A stretch of DNA of 64,000 nucleotides, from the NCBI GenBank assembly GCA_019359355.1, contig JAHHHM010000011.1, positions 62,001-126,000 of the forward strand, written 5' to 3'. The notes under the pieces are model-generated. The model saw only the letters and a list, made by a program, of their open reading frames with translations, was not told where the DNA came from and did no database searches. The stretch comes from Microcoleus vaginatus WJT46-NPBG5. GTDB lineage: Bacteria > Cyanobacteriota > Cyanobacteriia > Cyanobacteriales > Oscillatoriaceae. Of the stretch, positions 7,854 through 18,313 are shown piece after piece. Positions within the stretch are counted from its first letter, which is position 1. Each line of letters begins with the position of its first letter. The translations under genes were made by a program, and so were the position numbers.

Positions 7854-10757
7854 TTAATTCTCGCGCTGCTTTCGCTGCTGCGTCAGCGGAATTTCGATGA
7901 TAAACTCTGCCCCTCCTCCGGGTTCCGATACACACTCTAGCCGGCCTCCATGTTTGTCTACAATAATTTGATAGCTAATCGATAATCCTAAGCCGGTGCC
8001 TTCTCCCACAGGTTTTGTGGTAAAGAACGGATCAAATATTCGTTTACGAACCATTTCGCTTATTCCCGGCCCATTATCTTTAAAGCTAATCCCCACGCAA
8101 TTATTGGCTAATAGCCGTGTTTGAATAGTAATGCTACTGGGTTGTTCTTGAATTTGTTGAATGGTTCGTTCTCTATCAGATTTATGTAGGGCATCAATGG
8201 CATTGCTGAGGATATTCATAAAGACTTGATTGAGTTGGCCGGCATAACATTCAACCAAAGGTAAATCATCATAATTTTTAATCATTGTAATCGCGGGCAG
8301 CTCCGGTTTGGCTTTGAAGCGCCCCTGCAAAATCAAAAGTGTACTCTCCAACCCTTCATGAATGTTAACGCGCTTCATTTCAGCTTCGTCTAGCCGAGAG
8401 AAATTCCGCAACGTTAAAACAATTTCTCGAATGCGATTCGCCCCAACTTTCATCGAAGACACCATTTTAGGTAAATCTTCTACTAAATAGTTAAGGTCAA
8501 TTTCTTCAATAAGGGTTTGAATTTCTGGGTCACTATGACGATAACCCTGCTGGTAAAGGTGAATTAAACTCAGAAAATCTTCTGTGTACTCACTAACATG
8601 GGCGAGATTTCCGTAGATAAAATTAACTGGATTATTAATCTCGTGAGCAACACCGGCAACCAACTGACCCAGGCTAGACATTTTCTCGGTTTGAATTAAT
8701 TGTGCTTGGGTGCGCCGTAAATCTTGCAAGGTCAGTTCTAGTTGGGTGGCTTGTTGTCTGGCCGTTTCTTCCGAGTTCCGCAAAGCCGCCTCAGAGAGTT
8801 TGCGATCAGTTATATCGCGCAGAATCACAATATATTCTGATAGATCCCGATTCGCACGTTGAGAGATCGTGAATTCAATAAAACGTAAGCCACGATTACC
8901 ACAATCCAGTGTTTGTTCGTTCCGATTAGGCCACAAATCTGGAGTGAGTGGTAACTGTGGAAAGAAACGATTTAGAGGACGATCAATTAATTCAATGGTT
9001 TTTAAGTCAAAGAGTTGCTCAGCGGCTGGGTTGGCTTGACGGAGCGCACCATTGCTATCAATAACTAGAACCGTATCGGGAACAGTATCAAGCGCCGTAA
9101 TAAAGCGACTTTCAGCAATTTCTCGCGCTTCGGCAATCGCTGCAACTTGAGGCAAACTTGTCCAGCAAGCGATGGCGATTCCGACAAAGGCAATCATCAT
9201 CAGGAAAATGATAAATAGATCGTTGCTAGCAGCTGCGACATTCCCATCCAATCTCGCCTTAATAAACCAACTGGCAGAGGCTGCGCCACAAACCAGAAAG
9301 AGCAGGACTAGCACCTGAACTGCGACAAAATCTTTGAAATGGCCTTGAGGCTTGATTTGATCGCGTTTAATCCACCAGTTGGGATGGAATGGCGCAAAGG
9401 GAATCCGGCGAATTGCGGCATCCACTCCCAAAAGAGCAACGGGAAGGAGAAGTCCCAAGAGAATATCTTGCCAGCTGATTGCTAAGCCGGCGACAACCAA
9501 AACAACAGCCTCTACGACAAATAAACCCAGCCAGCACCAAGATGTAACAGCTTCACGCCAGTTGCGCCAACCTGCCGTTGGCCGACTTCGACGCAGCCAC
9601 AGCCCCAGAAACAAAATCAGGGTACAGGCAAATCCACCCGTCCCCGTCACGAGCACGATGCGGGTGATGTCTCCCCAAATTAAACAAACTAGACTGAGTA
9701 AAAGGCCAAATACCAAGCTTGGCCCTAAGACACCCCGTCGGGAAAGCACTGCAAAAACTGGTGACATCTGCCCATCTTTGGCCAGTTGATATAAGATGCG
9801 GGGCGTGTTAGAAACGACTGTCGCACAGCCGAGAAGGCAGCCAGAACTAATCAAGAGTGTCACCAGAAAAGAGGCTGAGGTGCCCCAAAAAGGTTTGGCG
9901 GCTGCTAACAAGATGGCAAAAGGGTTGTCACTAATTTCTGATTCGGTAGCTAGACGAATCAGTACCCAAGTACCACCCAGATACAGCACAGGAATTAACC
10001 AAGCTGCAAAGGTTAGAAAACGCAGCGTTTCCCCCGGACGACGGCTATCAGCAACAAACGAGGAAGCGCTTTCACAGCCACAGGTCGCCCAGAGTGCGAA
10101 GAAAAACCACTGTAACCAATCTTTGATTTGGAAAGATGCGACACTGCTAGTTGGTTCAGAAGGGAAAAATCCGGGAGAGGCGGGAGAAAAAGCTAACCAG
10201 CCGAGACCTTGCAGGCAATAGGTAAATAGGAATGCGATCGCCGGCAGGATAAAAAATAAGTGCAGGATGGCTAAAGCACGGGTGCCGCTAAAGGCCAAAA
10301 TAAAGGGGATTACCGTAAAGCCAATTTTGAGAATTGTCTCCGGACAGGCAATGCCCATTGTTTCCAAATTGGCTTTGATTAGTTCCGTCAGACCAATGGC
10401 GTTGATCGGCAAAAAGGCTGTCCAAGCACTCCAGTATCCAATGGCTGCATAGCGACCCAGGCCGGGATAGTTCTTGAGTAGCCGAGCGGTATAATTGGGC
10501 GTTCCCCCAGCGATGTCTGGCCAACGTTCACCTAAGTGCTTTACTTGGAAGTTGAGCAGCATCCCCACAATGACTGCCGGTAAAAACACAAAAATCGCAG
10601 ATGGCCCTAGGGCTACAGCGATGGTCGGGACGCTGAAAAGCCATGAGAGATGACCTGTGAGACCGAATCCCCAAGTTTCTAGAACGCTCAAGGTTCGGGG
10701 TAGGGGCATTGCGGTAGGGTGATCGCCGGCTACACCCAGGATAGGCTGCGTAGACAT
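7854..10757 (-). CDS. APC-type permease fused to PAS-histidine kinase (paralogue A)
   Basis: A 967-residue membrane sensor kinase. Residues about 25-450 are a 12-helix APC-superfamily permease-like domain (LETWGFGLTGHL, GGTPNYTARLL, SFVADSRRPGETLRF). Two further helices lie at 478-498 and 513-531. A PAS domain follows (about 550-650, ending VILRDITDRK), then a coiled coil and the kinase core: phospho-acceptor H705 in AHEINNP, N box with N852 (SNAIDAL), G1 box DNGPG (894-898), F box FDPFF, G2 box GEGTGLG. All catalytic motifs are intact. It is the third member of a same-strand run of three paralogues. No receiver domain or response regulator is nearby. Uptake activity is unproven: the permease could be a transporter, or a sensor of substrate occupancy as proposed for CbrA-type SSS-kinase fusions. 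Confidence 0.92.
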   Translation of the reverse strand: MSTQPILGVAGDHPTAMPLPRTLSVLETWGFGLTGHLSWLFSVPTIAVALGPSAIFVFLPAVIVGMLLNFQVKHLGERWPDIAGGTPNYTARLLKNYPGLGRYAAIGYWSAWTAFLPINAIGLTELIKANLETMGIACPETILKIGFTVIPFILAFSGTRALAILHLFFILPAIAFLFTYCLQGLGWLAFSPASPGFFPSEPTSSVASFQIKDWLQWFFFALWATCGCESASSFVADSRRPGETLRFLTFAAWLIPVLYLGGTWVLIRLATESEISDNPFAILLAAAKPFWGTSASFLVTLLISSGCLLGCATVVSNTPRILYQLAKDGQMSPVFAVLSRRGVLGPSLVFGLLLSLVCLIWGDITRIVLVTGTGGFACTLILFLGLWLRRSRPTAGWRNWREAVTSWCWLGLFVVEAVVLVVAGLAISWQDILLGLLLPVALLGVDAAIRRIPFAPFHPNWWIKRDQIKPQGHFKDFVAVQVLVLLFLVCGAASASWFIKARLDGNVAAASNDLFIIFLMMIAFVGIAIACWTSLPQVAAIAEAREIAESRFITALDTVPDTVLVIDSNGALRQANPAAEQLFDLKTIELIDRPLNRFFPQLPLTPDLWPNRNEQTLDCGNRGLRFIEFTISQRANRDLSEYIVILRDITDRKLSEAALRNSEETARQQATQLELTLQDLRRTQAQLIQTEKMSSLGQLVAGVAHEINNPVNFIYGNLAHVSEYTEDFLSLIHLYQQGYRHSDPEIQTLIEEIDLNYLVEDLPKMVSSMKVGANRIREIVLTLRNFSRLDEAEMKRVNIHEGLESTLLILQGRFKAKPELPAITMIKNYDDLPLVECYAGQLNQVFMNILSNAIDALHKSDRERTIQQIQEQPSSITIQTRLLANNCVGISFKDNGPGISEMVRKRIFDPFFTTKPVGEGTGLGLSISYQIIVDKHGGRLECVSEPGGGAEFIIEIPLTQQRKQREN

Positions 10758-11073: not shown

Positions 11074-14000
11074 TTAATCGATCTTCATCTTTGCACAAGC
11101 GCTTTGCCTGATCGGAATCTCAATAATAAACTCTGCCCCCGCGCCCGGTTGGGAGATACACTTCATCTGTCCACCATGTTTATCTGCAATAATTTGATAA
11201 CTAATCGATAATCCCAAGCCGGTGCCTTCTCCCACAGGTTTGGTTGTGAAAAACGGGTCAAATACTCGTTTTTGAATGTTTTCTGTCATTCCCGGCCCAT
11301 TATCTTTAAACCGAATTTCTACGCGATTGCTGTCAAGAACCCGGCTACTAATTGCAATGGTACTGGGGTTATTTTTAATTTGTTCAGGTGTTCGGGCTTC
11401 GTCATGTTTGTGCAGCGCGTCAATCCCATTGCTAAGGATATTCATAAAGACTTGATTGAGCTGGCCGGCATAACATTCAACTGCCGGCAACTGACCGTAT
11501 TCTTTAATAATTGTAATACCCGGTAATTCCGGTTTTGCTTTCAAGCGATTTTGCAAAATCAAAAGGGTACTGTCAAGACCTTCATGAATATCCACCGGCT
11601 TCATTTCTGCTTCGTCTAACCGGGAGAAATTTCGTAAGGTTAAAACAATTTCTCGAATGCGATTTGCTCCCATTTTCATTGAAGATACTGTCTTCGGCAA
11701 ATCTTCTAGCAAAAACTCAAGATCAATCTCTTCAATAATGTCTTGAATTTTGGGGTCAGTATGGGAATAACCTTCTTGATAAAGGTTGATTAATGTCATG
11801 AGTGCCTGAGTATAATCATTAACATACGTGAGGTTGCCATAAATAAAATTAACCGGATTATTAATCTCGTGCGCCACACCGGCAACCAACTGACCGAGAG
11901 AAGACATTTTCTCACTTTGAACAAGTTGAGCTTGGGCTTGTTGAAGCTGTTGCAGCGCTTGTTCTAGTTTCTGCGCTTGAGCAGTTGCTGTTTGAACGGC
12001 AGAACAGCTTTGTTGATAGAGTTCGGCTTGCTGAATCGCAATTGCTGCTTGGTTCGCTAATTGTTGCAGCAATTCAATTTCTGCCGGCTGCCAAACCCTA
12101 GGCGCGGCACATTCATGAGCAATCAGTAATCCCCACAAATAATAATCAATGCGAATTGGTACAACCAAATTGGCTTTAATGTTAAGTTCTAGCAAAAACT
12201 TTTTATGACAGGGATTTAAATCTGACTCAGCAATATTATCAACGGCTCTAACGCGTCCGTAACTGTAAAGGCGAGCATAATCTGTAGGAAAACATTCATC
12301 CGCATACTCTTCCCCCTGAAGTAATTGCCACTCACCGCTGGCAGCTTCTACAACGATTTTGCCTTGCCAGTCTTGCGTGAATTGGTAAATAACGACCCGA
12401 TCTGTGTGAAGTAACGCAAGGACTTCTCGCACAATTGTTTCTAGAATCGTTTTTAAATCTAAAGTTCTACGAATTTGGTCTGTAACGTGCGTTAAAACCC
12501 GGTCAGATTCTACAGATTGAAGCAACCGCTCTTGAGTTTGCCGCAATTCCTGAAGCGCTCCTTCTAATTGTTCGGCTTGATCAGTTGCCGTGGCAGCAAG
12601 TTGTTCTTTAAGTTGTAATGTTTCCCGCAATTCTAACTCAACCTGCTTGCGATCAGTCACATCGCGCAAAATCACAATATATTCTTGCAGCTTTCGATTC
12701 GCTCGGTGTGAAATAGTTGCTTCAAGCGTGCGTAAGTTGTCTTCACTCCGCTTTAATATCAGTTCGCTTCGGCTTTGCCCTAACTCTGGTTCCAACGTTA
12801 TTGCCGGCAGAAAATCGTAAAGATGACGCCCAAGTAGCTCAACAGTGTCGATGTCAAAAAGTGCGGATGCGGCTGGGTTAGTTTGCAGAATCACGCCGTT
12901 TTTACCCACGACGAGAATAGTATCCGGAACGGTATCAAGGGCAGTAATAAACAAGTTTTCTGCTTGTTCCCGTGCTTTCGCAATGGAAGCAACTTGGGGC
13001 AAGCTTGTCCAGCAAGCAATTGCAATCGCAAAAAAGGCAACTATTATCAATAAAACGATTAAAAGATCGTTGCCGGCACTTTCAGCGCTTCTATCTAATA
13101 TTGCCCTGAGCGCCCAGCCTATAACCGTAGCGCTACAAACTAAGACAAGTAGGGTAACGACCTGAAGCACTAGAAAATCTTTAAACTTGCTATTGAAGGG
13201 CACAACGGTTCGCCTCACCCACCACTGTGGCGAGAAGGGGGGCAAGGAAACACGGCGGATCACGGCATCTGCTGCTACAATCGCCACCGGCAATAACAAC
13301 CCGATTGCTAAATTTTGCCACCCCCATCCGGCGCCAACCATCACCAGCACCAGGGTATCAAAGGCGAAAAAGCCAAGGGACAACCGCCCCCACCGTATTT
13401 CTGGCTGAACCCGACGTAGCCACAGCCCTAGATGCAGTGCCATGAACGTTACCATCGCCGGCGCACAGGTTAGCACGACAAGTTGGGCTAAATCTCCCCA
13501 ACCCAACGCGATCAGACTAATTAAAAGGGAGAAAACAAGGGCCGGCTGCAGAACGCCTTCTGGAGAGACGATGCTGAACACAGGTGAAATGTATCCGTCT
13601 AGCGCGAGTTGGTATAAAACGCGAGGCGCGTTGGCTACGGAAGTTGCGGCAATCACGAGACAGCTTGAGGCAAGCAGGAGTGTTACCGGCAAGGTTGCCC
13701 AAGCGCCCCAAAACATCGTGGCAGCGGTTACCAAGAGCGAGTAGGAGTTGTCATTCACGCCTGGAGAGGCTGCTAACCGCGCCAGTACCCAGGAACCCCC
13801 CAGACAGACGGGAGGAATCAGCCAAGCTGCCAAGGACAGAAATCGCAGGGTTTCACCGGGACGCCGGCTGTCTGCAACAAAAGAAGAAGCGGTTTCGCAG
13901 GCACAACTGCTCATGATTGCGAATAAAGACCACTTGCCCCAATCAATCCAGGTTAAGTGCGGCCAACTGGTGGGGAAAAATCCGGGACTGTTGGGAGAGA

Positions 14001-14568
14001 AGGCTAACCAGCCAAGACCTTGAACGCAAAAGACTAGCAAAAATCCAATGGCTGGGAAGATAAAAAATGCTTGTAAGATTGCTAAGGTGCGGGTGCCGCT
14101 CAACGCCACAATATAAACGATGAGGGTAAATGCAATTTTTAGAATCAGTTCGGGAGAAGCAATGCCAAAGGGTTCTAAGTTGGCTTTGACAATTTCTGTA
14201 AGGATGATGGCGCTTGCCGGCGGAAAGGTGGCCCAAGCTAGGAAATAGGCGATTGCAGCATAACGGCCCACAGCGGGATAGTTACTCAGCAGTCTGGTTA
14301 TATAATTGGGCGTTCCGCCTGACATTTCTGGCCACTGTTCCCCTAAGCGTTTCACTTGCAGGTTCAGCAGCACTCCTACGAATACTGCCGGCAACCAAAC
14401 GAAAATGGCAGCCGGTCCCAGCGCCATGTGGATTGCCGGTGCATTGGTAACCCATCCTAAATGGCCCGTGAGTCCGAACCCCCAAGTTTCCAGCGCACTC
14501 AAGCTACGGGGTAAGCGCGTGGAGTCGCGCTGAGGATTATCCACACCTGTAAAAGGCTGCGTAGGCAT
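11074..14568 (-). CDS. APC-type permease fused to PAS, cyanobacteriochrome-like GAF and histidine kinase (paralogue B)
   Basis: 1164 residues. The 12-helix permease-like domain (25-440), two extra helices (465-488, 500-520) and PAS (540-640) align with paralogues A and C. Unlike them it has a GAF domain at about 690-848 before the kinase (H900 in AHEINNP, then intact N, G1, F and G2 boxes). This GAF resembles bilin-binding domains: DECF at 757-760 (Cys759), GRVRAVDNI, then NPCHKKF with Cys787-His788, KANLVVPI and LWGLLIAHEC. Cys759 and Cys787 are 28 residues apart, the spacing of the two chromophore-linking cysteines of DXCF cyanobacteriochromes such as TePixJ. So a light-responsive member of the family is a reasonable inference, not shown. 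Gap to paralogue C upstream is 118 bases, so co-transcription is possible. Confidence 0.92.
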   Translation of the reverse strand: MPTQPFTGVDNPQRDSTRLPRSLSALETWGFGLTGHLGWVTNAPAIHMALGPAAIFVWLPAVFVGVLLNLQVKRLGEQWPEMSGGTPNYITRLLSNYPAVGRYAAIAYFLAWATFPPASAIILTEIVKANLEPFGIASPELILKIAFTLIVYIVALSGTRTLAILQAFFIFPAIGFLLVFCVQGLGWLAFSPNSPGFFPTSWPHLTWIDWGKWSLFAIMSSCACETASSFVADSRRPGETLRFLSLAAWLIPPVCLGGSWVLARLAASPGVNDNSYSLLVTAATMFWGAWATLPVTLLLASSCLVIAATSVANAPRVLYQLALDGYISPVFSIVSPEGVLQPALVFSLLISLIALGWGDLAQLVVLTCAPAMVTFMALHLGLWLRRVQPEIRWGRLSLGFFAFDTLVLVMVGAGWGWQNLAIGLLLPVAIVAADAVIRRVSLPPFSPQWWVRRTVVPFNSKFKDFLVLQVVTLLVLVCSATVIGWALRAILDRSAESAGNDLLIVLLIIVAFFAIAIACWTSLPQVASIAKAREQAENLFITALDTVPDTILVVGKNGVILQTNPAASALFDIDTVELLGRHLYDFLPAITLEPELGQSRSELILKRSEDNLRTLEATISHRANRKLQEYIVILRDVTDRKQVELELRETLQLKEQLAATATDQAEQLEGALQELRQTQERLLQSVESDRVLTHVTDQIRRTLDLKTILETIVREVLALLHTDRVVIYQFTQDWQGKIVVEAASGEWQLLQGEEYADECFPTDYARLYSYGRVRAVDNIAESDLNPCHKKFLLELNIKANLVVPIRIDYYLWGLLIAHECAAPRVWQPAEIELLQQLANQAAIAIQQAELYQQSCSAVQTATAQAQKLEQALQQLQQAQAQLVQSEKMSSLGQLVAGVAHEINNPVNFIYGNLTYVNDYTQALMTLINLYQEGYSHTDPKIQDIIEEIDLEFLLEDLPKTVSSMKMGANRIREIVLTLRNFSRLDEAEMKPVDIHEGLDSTLLILQNRLKAKPELPGITIIKEYGQLPAVECYAGQLNQVFMNILSNGIDALHKHDEARTPEQIKNNPSTIAISSRVLDSNRVEIRFKDNGPGMTENIQKRVFDPFFTTKPVGEGTGLGLSISYQIIADKHGGQMKCISQPGAGAEFIIEIPIRQSACAKMKID

Positions 14569-14686: not shown

Positions 14687-17600
14687 TCAGCTTTGCCTAA
14701 TGGGAATTTCAATCCAAAACTCTGCGCCTTCTCCGGGTTCCGAATGACATTCTAGCCGGCCTCTATGCTTGTCAGCGATAATTTGATAACTAATCGATAA
14801 TCCCAAGCCGGTGCCTTCGCCAACAGGTTTCGTTGTAAAAAACGGATCAAATATTCGCACTCGGACGTTTTCGCTCAATCCCGGCCCATTGTCTTTAAAC
14901 CGAATTCCTACGCGATTGTTGCCAAGCACTTGCGTGTGAATTGTAATTTGACTGGGGTTCTCTTTGATCTGCTCAGGCGTGCGCTCTTTGTCATGCTTAT
15001 GCAGGGCGTCTATGGCGTTGGTAAGGATGTTCATAAACACCTGATTCAGCTGGCCGGCATAACATTCAACGAGGGGTAACTCTTCATACTTCTTAATAAT
15101 TTCTATGCCGGGAGAATCCGGTTTATTCTTCAGCGCATTCTGCAAAATTAACAGCGTACTTTCGATGCCCTCATGAATGTCAACCGGCTTCATATCTGAT
15201 TCGTCAAGCCGGGAGAAATTTCGCAACGTCAGCACAATATTTCGGATGCGTTCAGCCCCCACTTTCATAGAAGACAGGGTTTTTGGCAGATCCTCAATAA
15301 TAAAATCAAGTTCCATCTCTTCAATGCAATTTTGAGTTTCAGGATCGCTGTAGCGATAACCTTCCTCAAAAAGGTTGATTAATTTCAGCAGATCTTGAGC
15401 GTATTCGCTGACGTGAGTGATGTTGCCATAAATAAAGTTAACCGGATTGTTAATTTCGTGAGCCACCCCGGCAACTAACTGACCCAGACCTGACATTTTC
15501 TCTGTCTGGATCAGTTGAGTTTGAGTTCTTTGTAAATCTTGCAGCGTTTGTTCTAGCTGCGTTGCTTGCTCTCTTAAACGAGCTTCTGATGTTTGTAGTG
15601 CTTCTTCCGCTTGCTTGCGCTCAGTGATATCGCGGAAGTAAACAGAAAGTCCATCTTCACCCGGATAGGCGCGGACTTCAAACCAATTATTAAAACGCGG
15701 AGAGTAGCTCTCAAAGGCTACAGGAATTTGTTGAGTAACTGCTTTATGATATTGATGGTAAAAGAGCGAATCACTGGCTTGCGGATATTCCTCCCAAATA
15801 TTCTTGCCAAGGAGTTCTTCGTGTGTGCTTCTTTGTAAAACATCAAGTGCTTGTTGGTTAATATAAGTAAAGCGCCACTGATGATCTAAAGCCAAAAAGG
15901 CATCGGTGATACTTTCTAAAATATTGACAGTTCGCCTGTTAGAGGCGCGTAAGGCTGACTCAATCTGCTTGCGTTCAGTAATGTCAATACAGGAGCCAAT
16001 GTAGCCAGTAAAGCTGCCATCTGGTAAAAACCGGGGATTTCCTGTATCCAAAATCCAGCGATATTCGCCGTCAGCACGCCGCAAGCGATATTCTATGCGG
16101 AAGCTTTGGCGAGCGTTAAATGCAGTGGTATAGCTATTTAAACAGTGCTGTTTATCTTCAGGATGAACGCCTTCAGTCCAGCCATGCTCGGCTTCTTCTT
16201 CCATTGTTTTACCAGTAAATTCTAGCCAAACTTTATTGAAGTAATGACAGCGTTTATCAGTGCCGGCCAGCCAAATTAGAACCGGCGCGGTATCTGCCAT
16301 CAAGCGAAATCGTTCTTCGCTTTCGTGCAAAACTGCCTCAGCGTGCTTGCGCTCTGTAATGTCGCGCAGGATGACAATATATTCTGGAAGATTGCGATTT
16401 GATCGCGCTGAAACCGTCGCCTCAATGATGCGTAAGCCTTGATAGCGTTCCAATGCTTGTTCGCTTTGGTTTGACCACTGAGCCGGTGAATGTCCTAAAC
16501 CAGGCAAAAGCGTGTTCAAATTTTCCCCCAGCAACTCATGGGCATTTAAGCCGAAGAGTGCCTCAGCGGCTGGGTTGGCCTGATCAATTTCCCCGTTTTC
16601 ACCGACCACAAGAATCGTATCTGGAACCGTGTCAAGGGCAGCAATAAAAAGATTTTCAGCGTGTTGACGGGCCTCATCAATCGCAGCAACCTGAGGCAAG
16701 CTTGTCCAGCAGGCAACAGCGATCGCCACAAATGCGATCGTCAGCAGCAAAATCACTAAAAGATTGTTGGTGCCATGAGGATTGAGCTGCTCCAAGGGAT
16801 CGATCTGCTCGAACTTGTCTCGAATTACCCAGGTAATGACAGTGGCACTACAAACCAATCCCAGTAGAATGAGCACCTGAGAGGCAACAAAATCTTTGAA
16901 CGGACGACTCCGTCGGCGGTCACGCTCAATCCACCAGGATGGATGAAACGGTGGAAAGGCAATGCGCCGGCTAACGGCATCCACGCTCAAAATGGCGACA
17001 GGAAACAGCAGCCCGATTAGCACGTCTTGCCAACTCCAAGCAACGCCTCCCACCAGCAGGACAAGTGCCTCAATGATGCAGAAGCCTAGCGACCACTTGC
17101 CCCATCGTACTTCTGGCCGGCCTCGGCGTAGCCACAGTCCCAGATGAACGAGCATTATTGCTGCGAGATAGCCGCTGCTGGTGACGACCACGATCCGGGA
17201 GATATCTCCCCAAACCAAATAAATCAGGCTGATGAACAGGGAAAAAATTAGGGCCGGTTGCAGAACACCTTGTCGGGAGACAATGGTGAAGACGGGTGAA
17301 AGGTGTCCGTCTAAAGCAAGTTGGTACAAGATGCGGGGAGAGTTGGAAACCGCAGTGGCACAGGCGAGAAGGCTGCTGGAGGCAATTAGTAGCGTGACGA
17401 TCAAAGCGGCTGACTCACCCCAGAATGGCTTTGCTGCGGCGAACATATTTAGATATGTATCCTCGCCCAACCCCGGTGCTGTTGCCAAACGCATCAATAC
17501 CCAAGATCCGCCCAGAAGAACAATCGGCATTAGCCAAGCAGCTAGCTTCAGAAATCGCAATGTCTCTCCGGGACGCCGGCTGTCAGCGATAAATGAGGAA

Positions 17601-18313
17601 GATGTTTCGCACGCATAAGCGATGTAGATGGCAAAGAAGAACCACTTCGCCCAGTCAGTAAAGGTTAAGGGCGAGAAACTGCTGGGCAACAGTCCCGGAC
17701 TTGCCGGCGAAAAGGCTAACCAGCCTAAGCCTTGAACGCAAAAGACTAACAAGAATCCCAAGGCTGGAAAAATGAAAAAAGTGTGCAAAATTCCCAAGGT
17801 GCGGGTGCCGCTCAACGCCACAATATAGGCGATTAGCGTGAATCCGATTTTGAGAGCGGTTTCCGGACAAGCAATGCCCAAGGGTTCCAGGTTGGCTTTA
17901 ATCAGCGCGGTGAGGATAATCGGGTTGATCGGCAGATAGCCGGCCCAGCCGATGAAGTATGCGATCGCCATATAGCGACCCAGCCCTGGATACTTCGAGA
18001 GCAGCCTGGTTGCATAATTAGGGGTTCCACCCGATACATCTGGCCACTCTTCCCCTAAGCGCTTCACCTGCAAGTTCAGTAACACCCCCACAACTAGGGC
18101 CGGCAACCACACGAAAATCGCAGAGGGTCCAAGCGCAGCGTGCATCAGCGGTGCGGTGCCAATCCATGCCAAGTGACCTGTCAGACCAAACCCCCAAGTT
18201 TCAAGGGCGCTGAGGCTGCGGGGTAGCCGCATCGCTGAGGGCTGATTTATCGTTGCATTTTTTTGGTTAAAACTAACCTTAACAGGTGAAGCGCTTGACA
18301 TGATGTTAGCCAT
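14687..18313 (-). CDS. APC-type permease fused to triple-PAS histidine kinase (paralogue C)
   Basis: 1208 residues. Permease-like domain at about 35-450, extra helices at 475-497 and 517-536, then three PAS domains: 555-655 (shared with A and B), 665-785 (ERFRLMADTAPVLIW; ends IGSCIDITERK, a PAS/PAC of the S-box type), and 792-900 (ends VYFRDITERK). The kinase core has H952 in AHEINNP and intact N, G1, F and G2 boxes. It is the first gene of the triplet. ATG at 18313 is used; another ATG four codons on (18301) is equally possible because neither has a good Shine-Dalgarno. A minus-strand terminator lies about 360 bases upstream. The cognate regulator is not in the window. Confidence 0.92.
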   Translation of the reverse strand: MANIMSSASPVKVSFNQKNATINQPSAMRLPRSLSALETWGFGLTGHLAWIGTAPLMHAALGPSAIFVWLPALVVGVLLNLQVKRLGEEWPDVSGGTPNYATRLLSKYPGLGRYMAIAYFIGWAGYLPINPIILTALIKANLEPLGIACPETALKIGFTLIAYIVALSGTRTLGILHTFFIFPALGFLLVFCVQGLGWLAFSPASPGLLPSSFSPLTFTDWAKWFFFAIYIAYACETSSSFIADSRRPGETLRFLKLAAWLMPIVLLGGSWVLMRLATAPGLGEDTYLNMFAAAKPFWGESAALIVTLLIASSSLLACATAVSNSPRILYQLALDGHLSPVFTIVSRQGVLQPALIFSLFISLIYLVWGDISRIVVVTSSGYLAAIMLVHLGLWLRRGRPEVRWGKWSLGFCIIEALVLLVGGVAWSWQDVLIGLLFPVAILSVDAVSRRIAFPPFHPSWWIERDRRRSRPFKDFVASQVLILLGLVCSATVITWVIRDKFEQIDPLEQLNPHGTNNLLVILLLTIAFVAIAVACWTSLPQVAAIDEARQHAENLFIAALDTVPDTILVVGENGEIDQANPAAEALFGLNAHELLGENLNTLLPGLGHSPAQWSNQSEQALERYQGLRIIEATVSARSNRNLPEYIVILRDITERKHAEAVLHESEERFRLMADTAPVLIWLAGTDKRCHYFNKVWLEFTGKTMEEEAEHGWTEGVHPEDKQHCLNSYTTAFNARQSFRIEYRLRRADGEYRWILDTGNPRFLPDGSFTGYIGSCIDITERKQIESALRASNRRTVNILESITDAFLALDHQWRFTYINQQALDVLQRSTHEELLGKNIWEEYPQASDSLFYHQYHKAVTQQIPVAFESYSPRFNNWFEVRAYPGEDGLSVYFRDITERKQAEEALQTSEARLREQATQLEQTLQDLQRTQTQLIQTEKMSGLGQLVAGVAHEINNPVNFIYGNITHVSEYAQDLLKLINLFEEGYRYSDPETQNCIEEMELDFIIEDLPKTLSSMKVGAERIRNIVLTLRNFSRLDESDMKPVDIHEGIESTLLILQNALKNKPDSPGIEIIKKYEELPLVECYAGQLNQVFMNILTNAIDALHKHDKERTPEQIKENPSQITIHTQVLGNNRVGIRFKDNGPGLSENVRVRIFDPFFTTKPVGEGTGLGLSISYQIIADKHRGRLECHSEPGEGAEFWIEIPIRQS

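Follow-up and report, generated by a model that had tools for sequence, protein, structure and literature searches.

A putative two-input histidine kinase of Microcoleus vaginatus combining a permease-like membrane module with a cyanobacteriochrome-type GAF domain

The window analysed here, the whole 64,000-nucleotide stretch taken from Microcoleus vaginatus WJT46-NPBG5, carries on its minus strand an open reading frame of 1164 aa (11074..14568) in which, according to the ORF list and Pfam, a permease-like part, a PAS domain, a cyanobacteriochrome-type GAF domain and a histidine kinase are joined in a single chain. The gene is the middle one of three tandem paralogues, the order along the minus strand being an upstream paralogue of 1208 aa (14687..18313; permease-like part, three PAS stretches, kinase), the GAF-bearing gene, a downstream paralogue of 967 aa (7854..10757; permease-like part, PAS, kinase) and rlmN. 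The three proteins differ chiefly between the first PAS domain and the kinase, and the middle one alone has a GAF domain, as the first-pass annotation had stated, with no GAF match returned by Pfam in 7854-10757 or 14687-18313. No response regulator was detected among ten nearby proteins scanned, namely kinase-TPR, ADP-ribosylglycohydrolase, glycosyltransferase-TPR, rlmN, HAD hydrolase, NurA-domain, RecA, outer-membrane-type, nitrite/sulphite reductase-type and TPR-like proteins. At two other loci with the GAF form (L110 and L112) an ORF of 343 aa, the length of rlmN, lies immediately downstream of it. Locus L112 (the G390 locus) additionally displays a kinase-like ORF of 454 aa between two permease kinases (L112:9027-10391).

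All parts of the 1164-aa protein lie on the minus strand. The N-terminal part (residues 1-535, 12964..14568) was assigned as an APC-superfamily permease-like membrane module with extra C-terminal helices on the basis of Pfam (AA_permease_2, residues 48-410, E 5.3e-14), AlphaFold2 and Foldseek, and is followed by a PAS domain (residues 544-641, 12646..12939; PAS_4, E 1.6e-7). A first linker (residues 641-690, 12499..12648), which appears coiled-coil-like by eye, leads to the GAF domain (residues 691-850, 12019..12498), assigned from sequence, fold and tree, with a Pfam core at residues 704-845 (E 2e-22). The interval 12026-12501 proposed in the first-pass annotation was indeed stop-free and corresponded to residues 690-847 of the permease-histidine kinase ORF. 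Beyond a second linker of similar appearance (residues 851-890, 11899..12018) lies the kinase (11077..11898), with the phospho-acceptor His900 (11869-11871) in the H-box AGVAHEINNP and an HATPase_c domain at residues 1036-1154 (E 2.5e-22). The Pfam HisKA match (residues 891-986, E 0.00019) fell under its cut-off, and identification as a kinase is based on the H-box histidine and the HATPase_c domain, both present.

Within the GAF domain, the motif DECF (residues 757-760, 12289..12300), containing the presumed second cysteine Cys759 (codon 12292-12294), and the pair Cys787-His788 (12205..12210), containing the presumed canonical bilin-attachment cysteine Cys787 (codon 12208-12210), were located as claimed earlier with the two cysteines 28 residues apart, and the segments KANLVVPI and LWGLLIAHEC were both found in the translation. 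The canonical ring-A cysteine of cyanobacteriochrome GAFs is followed by His or Tyr; here Cys787 is followed by His788. A phmmer search against PDB chains gave 6oap (9.3e-35), 8k9o (8.4e-32) and TePixJ 3vv4 (1.5e-29) as the best matches, and the suggested likeness to TePixJ was borne out in that the two cysteines aligned with DPCF and ECH of chain 3vv4. Counted along the same alignment, TePixJ D492, H523, Q526 and N535 correspond to D757, H788, F791 and N800. In TePixJ, C522 is described as linking to the ring A side chain of the bilin and C494 to its C10, with D492, H523, Q526 and N535 nearby (PMC6955287). An AlphaFold2 model of residues 680-868 (49 sequences) reached a mean pLDDT of 88.4, its weakest block being residues 750-759 (mean 68), which include Cys759. 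The top Foldseek matches of this model were bilin-binding GAFs (6oap with TMq 0.85, SyB-Cph1, TePixJ 4fof and others), and superposition on TePixJ 4glq gave an rmsd of 1.5 A. The structural model and alignment proposed as a check of the first-pass reading, therefore, both put the domain nearest to bilin-binding GAFs, in fold (Foldseek) as in sequence (phmmer).

Full-length GAF-bearing orthologues were found in G388 (93% identical overall), G389 (94%), G390 (71%) and G453 (63%), the last of which belongs to another family, so that the five orthologues, window protein included, span three genera and two families. The GAF form is also present in a named contig of Oscillatoria princeps RMCB-10 (L105), where it is the same protein as in L112. 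YADECFP and PCHK are identical across all five orthologues. Both cysteines were retained in each of the 29 loci fetched and used from a phylum-wide GAF search (41 matches were listed outside the genome itself). Of 15 further related GAFs encoded in the window's own genome, 11 have both cysteines and four lack one or both. In comparisons of the window protein with each of the four orthologues by a simple count, dN/dS was 0.039, 0.085, 0.066 and 0.138 for the GAF domain, 0.362, 0.257, 0.328 and 0.391 for the PAS domain, and 0.114, 0.123, 0.185 and 0.178 for the permease part, although the ratios are rough in two distant pairs, where dS exceeded 0.9 and was saturated or nearly so. The GAF value was thus lower than those of the PAS domain and the permease part in all four pairs. 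The kinase gave 0.181, 0.061, an undefined ratio (dS saturated) and 0.075; it was as low as the GAF domain or lower in three of four pairs, the third pair being undefined, and since the kinase is similarly constrained, the GAF domain is not singled out against every other part of the protein.

A tree was built from 53 GAFs, with loci L120 and L121 omitted because they repeat L127 and L136. Four permease GAFs were included, and these formed one clade (100/99) within a clade of 39 (99/98). TePixJ and 6oap fell outside the 39-member clade, TePixJ in the other main branch, although its position is unsure because it forms a long branch and is the sole characterised DXCF sequence included. All 39 clade members have both cysteines and the histidine, and 36 have the Phe after the second cysteine, while the Asp of the DXCF motif is found in nine: the four permease GAFs, L163, L132, L169, L134 and L155. 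The latter five are early branches or sit at open forks of the tree. On the simplest reading of this pattern, DXCF would be the older state and the Asp would have been lost in many GAFs of the clade. The claim of a DXCF cyanobacteriochrome stands as far as the letters D-x-C-F and the cyanobacteriochrome-like character of the domain are concerned; a placement with TePixJ is less certain, given the separate clade and the 30 of 39 members without the Asp. DXCF members are reported typically to convert phycocyanobilin (PCB) to phycoviolobilin (PVB), and in AM1_6305g1 the second cysteine is reported to be unnecessary for isomerisation to PVB (PMC11284453). The position of the clade apart from TePixJ and the frequent absence of the Asp mean that blue/green PVB photochemistry is not to be assumed, and AM1_6305g1 indicates that a retained cysteine is no proof of one chemistry; for both reasons, no colour pair is predicted for this GAF. 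A relationship to all2699g3, which belongs to a knotless-phytochrome kinase, was considered and dropped, all2699g3 being counted as red/green-type (PMC6121604). Members of the same clade also occur in three kinases with a phytochrome-like N-terminal part (L117:3017-5890, L118:3858-6707 and L119:4373-7225), whose GAFs have both cysteines but miss the DXCF Asp (GKCF, SECI).

As to chromophore supply, the genome gave one match to haem oxygenase and one to Fe_bilin_red, the latter identified by NCBIfam as phycocyanobilin:ferredoxin oxidoreductase (PcyA; 343 bits versus a cut-off of 206), which makes PCB the expected bilin. Judging from sequence and model, it is very likely that the GAF domain binds a bilin, and a two-cysteine photocycle of the DXCF type is plausible.

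In a signalling coiled coil, spacing is expected to be constant or to vary in heptad steps. From Trp812 (the Trp of LWGLL) to His900 there are 88 residues, and this distance was the same in all five orthologues (the window protein, L110, L111, L112 and L171). The pattern used to measure it matched 33 of 53 loci tried, representing 30 distinct proteins as three rows are repeats; the distance was 88 in 32 of the 33 rows of related GAF-kinases and 81, one heptad shorter, in the other (L148). Among permease kinases that lack the GAF domain, the PAS-to-His distance was 50, 57 or 64 (steps of seven) in 14 proteins, 47 in eight, 75 in nine and 59 in six, the last two groups having other kinase motifs; with such mixed values, the permease-kinase family is not on one series. 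The spacing from PAS to GAF could be followed in three distinct sequences, all of them orthologues. The near-constant distance between GAF and phospho-acceptor suggests that the GAF domain likely controls the kinase.

The two linkers flanking the GAF domain are alike, and both are similar to the one linker of the GAF-less downstream paralogue: linker 1 shows a 58% match to residues 665-690 of that protein, and linker 2 a 65% match to residues 664-700. This likeness is consistent with recombination at a repeated linker having brought in a linker-GAF unit, and we infer such an event for the origin of the gene. Acquisition of GAF and kinase as one block from a kinase of the L119 type was also considered and is disfavoured by the identities: the kinase part shares 75% identity with its counterparts in both neighbouring paralogues, while the GAF-kinase stretch is about 57-58% identical to L119, so that insertion of a linker-GAF unit fits better. 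Gene conversion between the paralogues may have followed later.

The permease part gave no match up to E 1 in a single-sequence search of the PDB. Its AlphaFold2 model (59 sequences, mean pLDDT 84.7) was matched best by Foldseek to y+LAT1, LAT1 and AdiC (E 4.7e-10 to 2.5e-9, about 15% identity, TMq 0.60-0.64), with KimA and NKCC1 lower, and the Pfam, model and Foldseek matches together support an APC fold. An SSF (SLC5) domain had no Pfam match up to E 0.001; AA_permease_2 was matched instead. An amino acid may be the ligand; besides amino-acid carriers, KimA and NKCC1 are among the model matches. Across 59 family members, E27 and F31 never vary and G32 hardly does; in the model the first helix is broken at residue 33, the place at which APC transporters unwind TM1.

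Matches to the permease query were obtained at E 1e-30 in 35 of 386 genomes of a phylum-wide sample, and at E 1e-120 in 104 of 388 genomes of the order. The order-level match spanned the GAF domain in five of the 104, a count based on the two best candidates per genome, by which the GAF form may be missed where copies are several. Viral contigs contained no relative of the permease part. In a scan of 59 proteins carrying the permease module, covering what lies C-terminal to the permease part, HATPase_c was present in 52, Response_reg in eight, GGDEF in six, EAL in six and GAF in four (the window protein, L110, L111 and L112), with close relatives favoured by 12 additions from the family search and from named contigs; before these additions, GAF was present in one of 47. 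The search of named genome contigs relied on six exact peptide patterns, which recover close relatives only, and yielded five loci, L105 being the one with the GAF form. Within these searches the proposed permease-photoreceptor combination is thus rare, the GAF form being found in one orthologous group only, but the underlying permease-PAS pairing is not rare in cyanobacteria. The permease module itself would seem to behave as a plug-in sensor, having several outputs as a sensory module would.

Taken as a whole, these sequence and model data point to what is probably a two-input histidine kinase, in which a cyanobacteriochrome has been inserted behind a permease-like sensor and light and a membrane signal would act on one output. 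The older input would be the APC-fold permease-like module with its PAS domain, common to a broad cyanobacterial family, beside whose kinase the cyanobacteriochrome GAF appears to have been inserted at the spacing used by related GAF-kinases. Cys787 would bind phycocyanobilin, light would isomerise the 15,16 double bond of the bilin, and Cys759 may add to C10, moving one photostate to a shorter wavelength. The GAF domain would then shift the coiled coil that begins at its last helix and thereby set autophosphorylation of His900, and the permease part would sense a ligand. As any signal from the permease and PAS domains would need to cross the GAF domain on its way to the kinase, light and the membrane signal would be merged in one output; integration of light with a permease-sensed signal is what we infer from this arrangement. 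A more specific version, which we put forward tentatively and regard as rather less probable, is a single-chain photo-chemical coincidence detector, in which the permease might signal whether an amino acid or a similar solute is bound, the cyanobacteriochrome might gate the passage of that signal to the kinase, and the state of the bilin might possibly alter the permease conformation in turn, so that binding or transport is tuned by light.

Several other readings of the GAF domain and of the gene bear on this proposal. PCB could be attached to Cys787 with no second thioether at Cys759, which would make the domain a cyanobacteriochrome of the single-linkage kind whose colour range differs; the position of TePixJ outside the 39-member clade, the absence of the Asp in 30 members that nevertheless retain the cysteine, and the AM1_6305g1 precedent (PMC11284453) all speak for it, but the equivalent of Cys759 is kept throughout the clade, nearly always followed by Phe, and the whole DXCF motif is retained in every orthologue, which leaves single linkage a real though lesser prospect. 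We regard it as improbable that the GAF domain has no bilin, or holds another small molecule or a metal, with the cysteines kept by descent or for other use: the four of 15 related same-genome GAFs that miss one or both cysteines would agree with such a reading, as would the many ligands that GAF domains bind, but both cysteines and His788 persist in the five orthologues and the 39 clade members, dN/dS is low, and haem oxygenase and PcyA are encoded. That the ORF arose as an artefact of chimeric assembly, or is a fusion in decay, as the rarity of the GAF form (5/104 matching genomes) might suggest, is hardly credible in view of the full-length architecture, repeated in five genomes that represent three genera and two families, and of a GAF dN well under dS in each pair.

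The role of the permease part is less firmly indicated. It could serve as a mere membrane anchor or dimeriser, leaving light as the sole input of the GAF-bearing member; the SLC5 domain of CbrA, for instance, is reported as non-essential for signal perception (PMC9100948), and the sequence of the permease part here reveals no substrate. The invariant E27 and F31, the nearly invariant G32, the break in helix 1 at residue 33 and the joining of the module to several outputs argue against a purely passive role, and we consider the anchor explanation doubtful, albeit not negligible. The two-input kinase remains the preferred reading.

Compared with known systems, the GAF domain has the fold of the TePixJ GAF (Foldseek; 3vv4, 4glq, 6pru) and both cysteines, Asp, Phe, His and Asn (TePixJ N535) in the same columns; it differs in belonging to a separate clade and in having Phe791 in place of Gln526, and its output is a kinase, whereas the name given to the TePixJ chain is methyl-accepting chemotaxis protein. 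The dual-sensor histidine kinase 6oap is the top match of the GAF domain in both sequence and fold, but has YF at the second-cysteine site where CF is found here, and the other input in our case is a permease-like membrane module. From a match of titles, 6oap is probably PPHK of Shin et al. 2019, in which, going by the title, the sensors reportedly act as a logic OR ahead of the kinase. The nearest GAF in the same genome (59%) belongs to the knotless-phytochrome-like kinase L119:4373-7225 (950 aa), which shares the GAF-to-His spacing but begins with GAF and PHY domains where the window protein has permease and PAS, and has a second-cysteine motif, SECI, without Asp or Phe. CbrA, CrbS and RpuS, SLC5/STAC transporter kinases described in proteobacteria, likewise have a transporter domain, PAS, coiled coil and kinase in a single chain, theirs being an SLC5 symporter with STAC as opposed to the APC fold and cyanobacteriochrome-type GAF of the cyanobacterial protein (PMC9100948). 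No bilin photoreceptor with a transporter-like domain in one chain was found described in the titles and abstract openings of the open-licence papers retrieved, nor was a fitting account of permease fusions found among the titles examined, and the main text of a two-component survey of 17 thermophilic cyanobacteria contains neither 'permease' nor 'transporter' in a term search (PMC9953108).

If functional, the protein would offer a compact natural test case for how light and a signal sensed at the membrane are integrated, and because the paralogues differ chiefly between the first PAS domain and the kinase, such integration can be tested by swapping one domain. The near-constant spacing of 88 residues, in turn, would supply a rule for building light-controlled kinases of the permease-kinase family.

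Other combinations were seen alongside the GAF form. In six of the 59 proteins (e.g. L056:2977-6354) the permease-PAS module is joined to GGDEF and EAL domains, an output of c-di-GMP type, an arrangement of which no account was found in a search of the open-licence literature; in eight (e.g. L077, L082, L058 and L106) it is joined to receiver domains. Searched with the query protein at E 0.001, the 6.5 Mb genome itself yielded 161 matches, of which many involve the kinase part; by this measure its kinase repertoire is very large.
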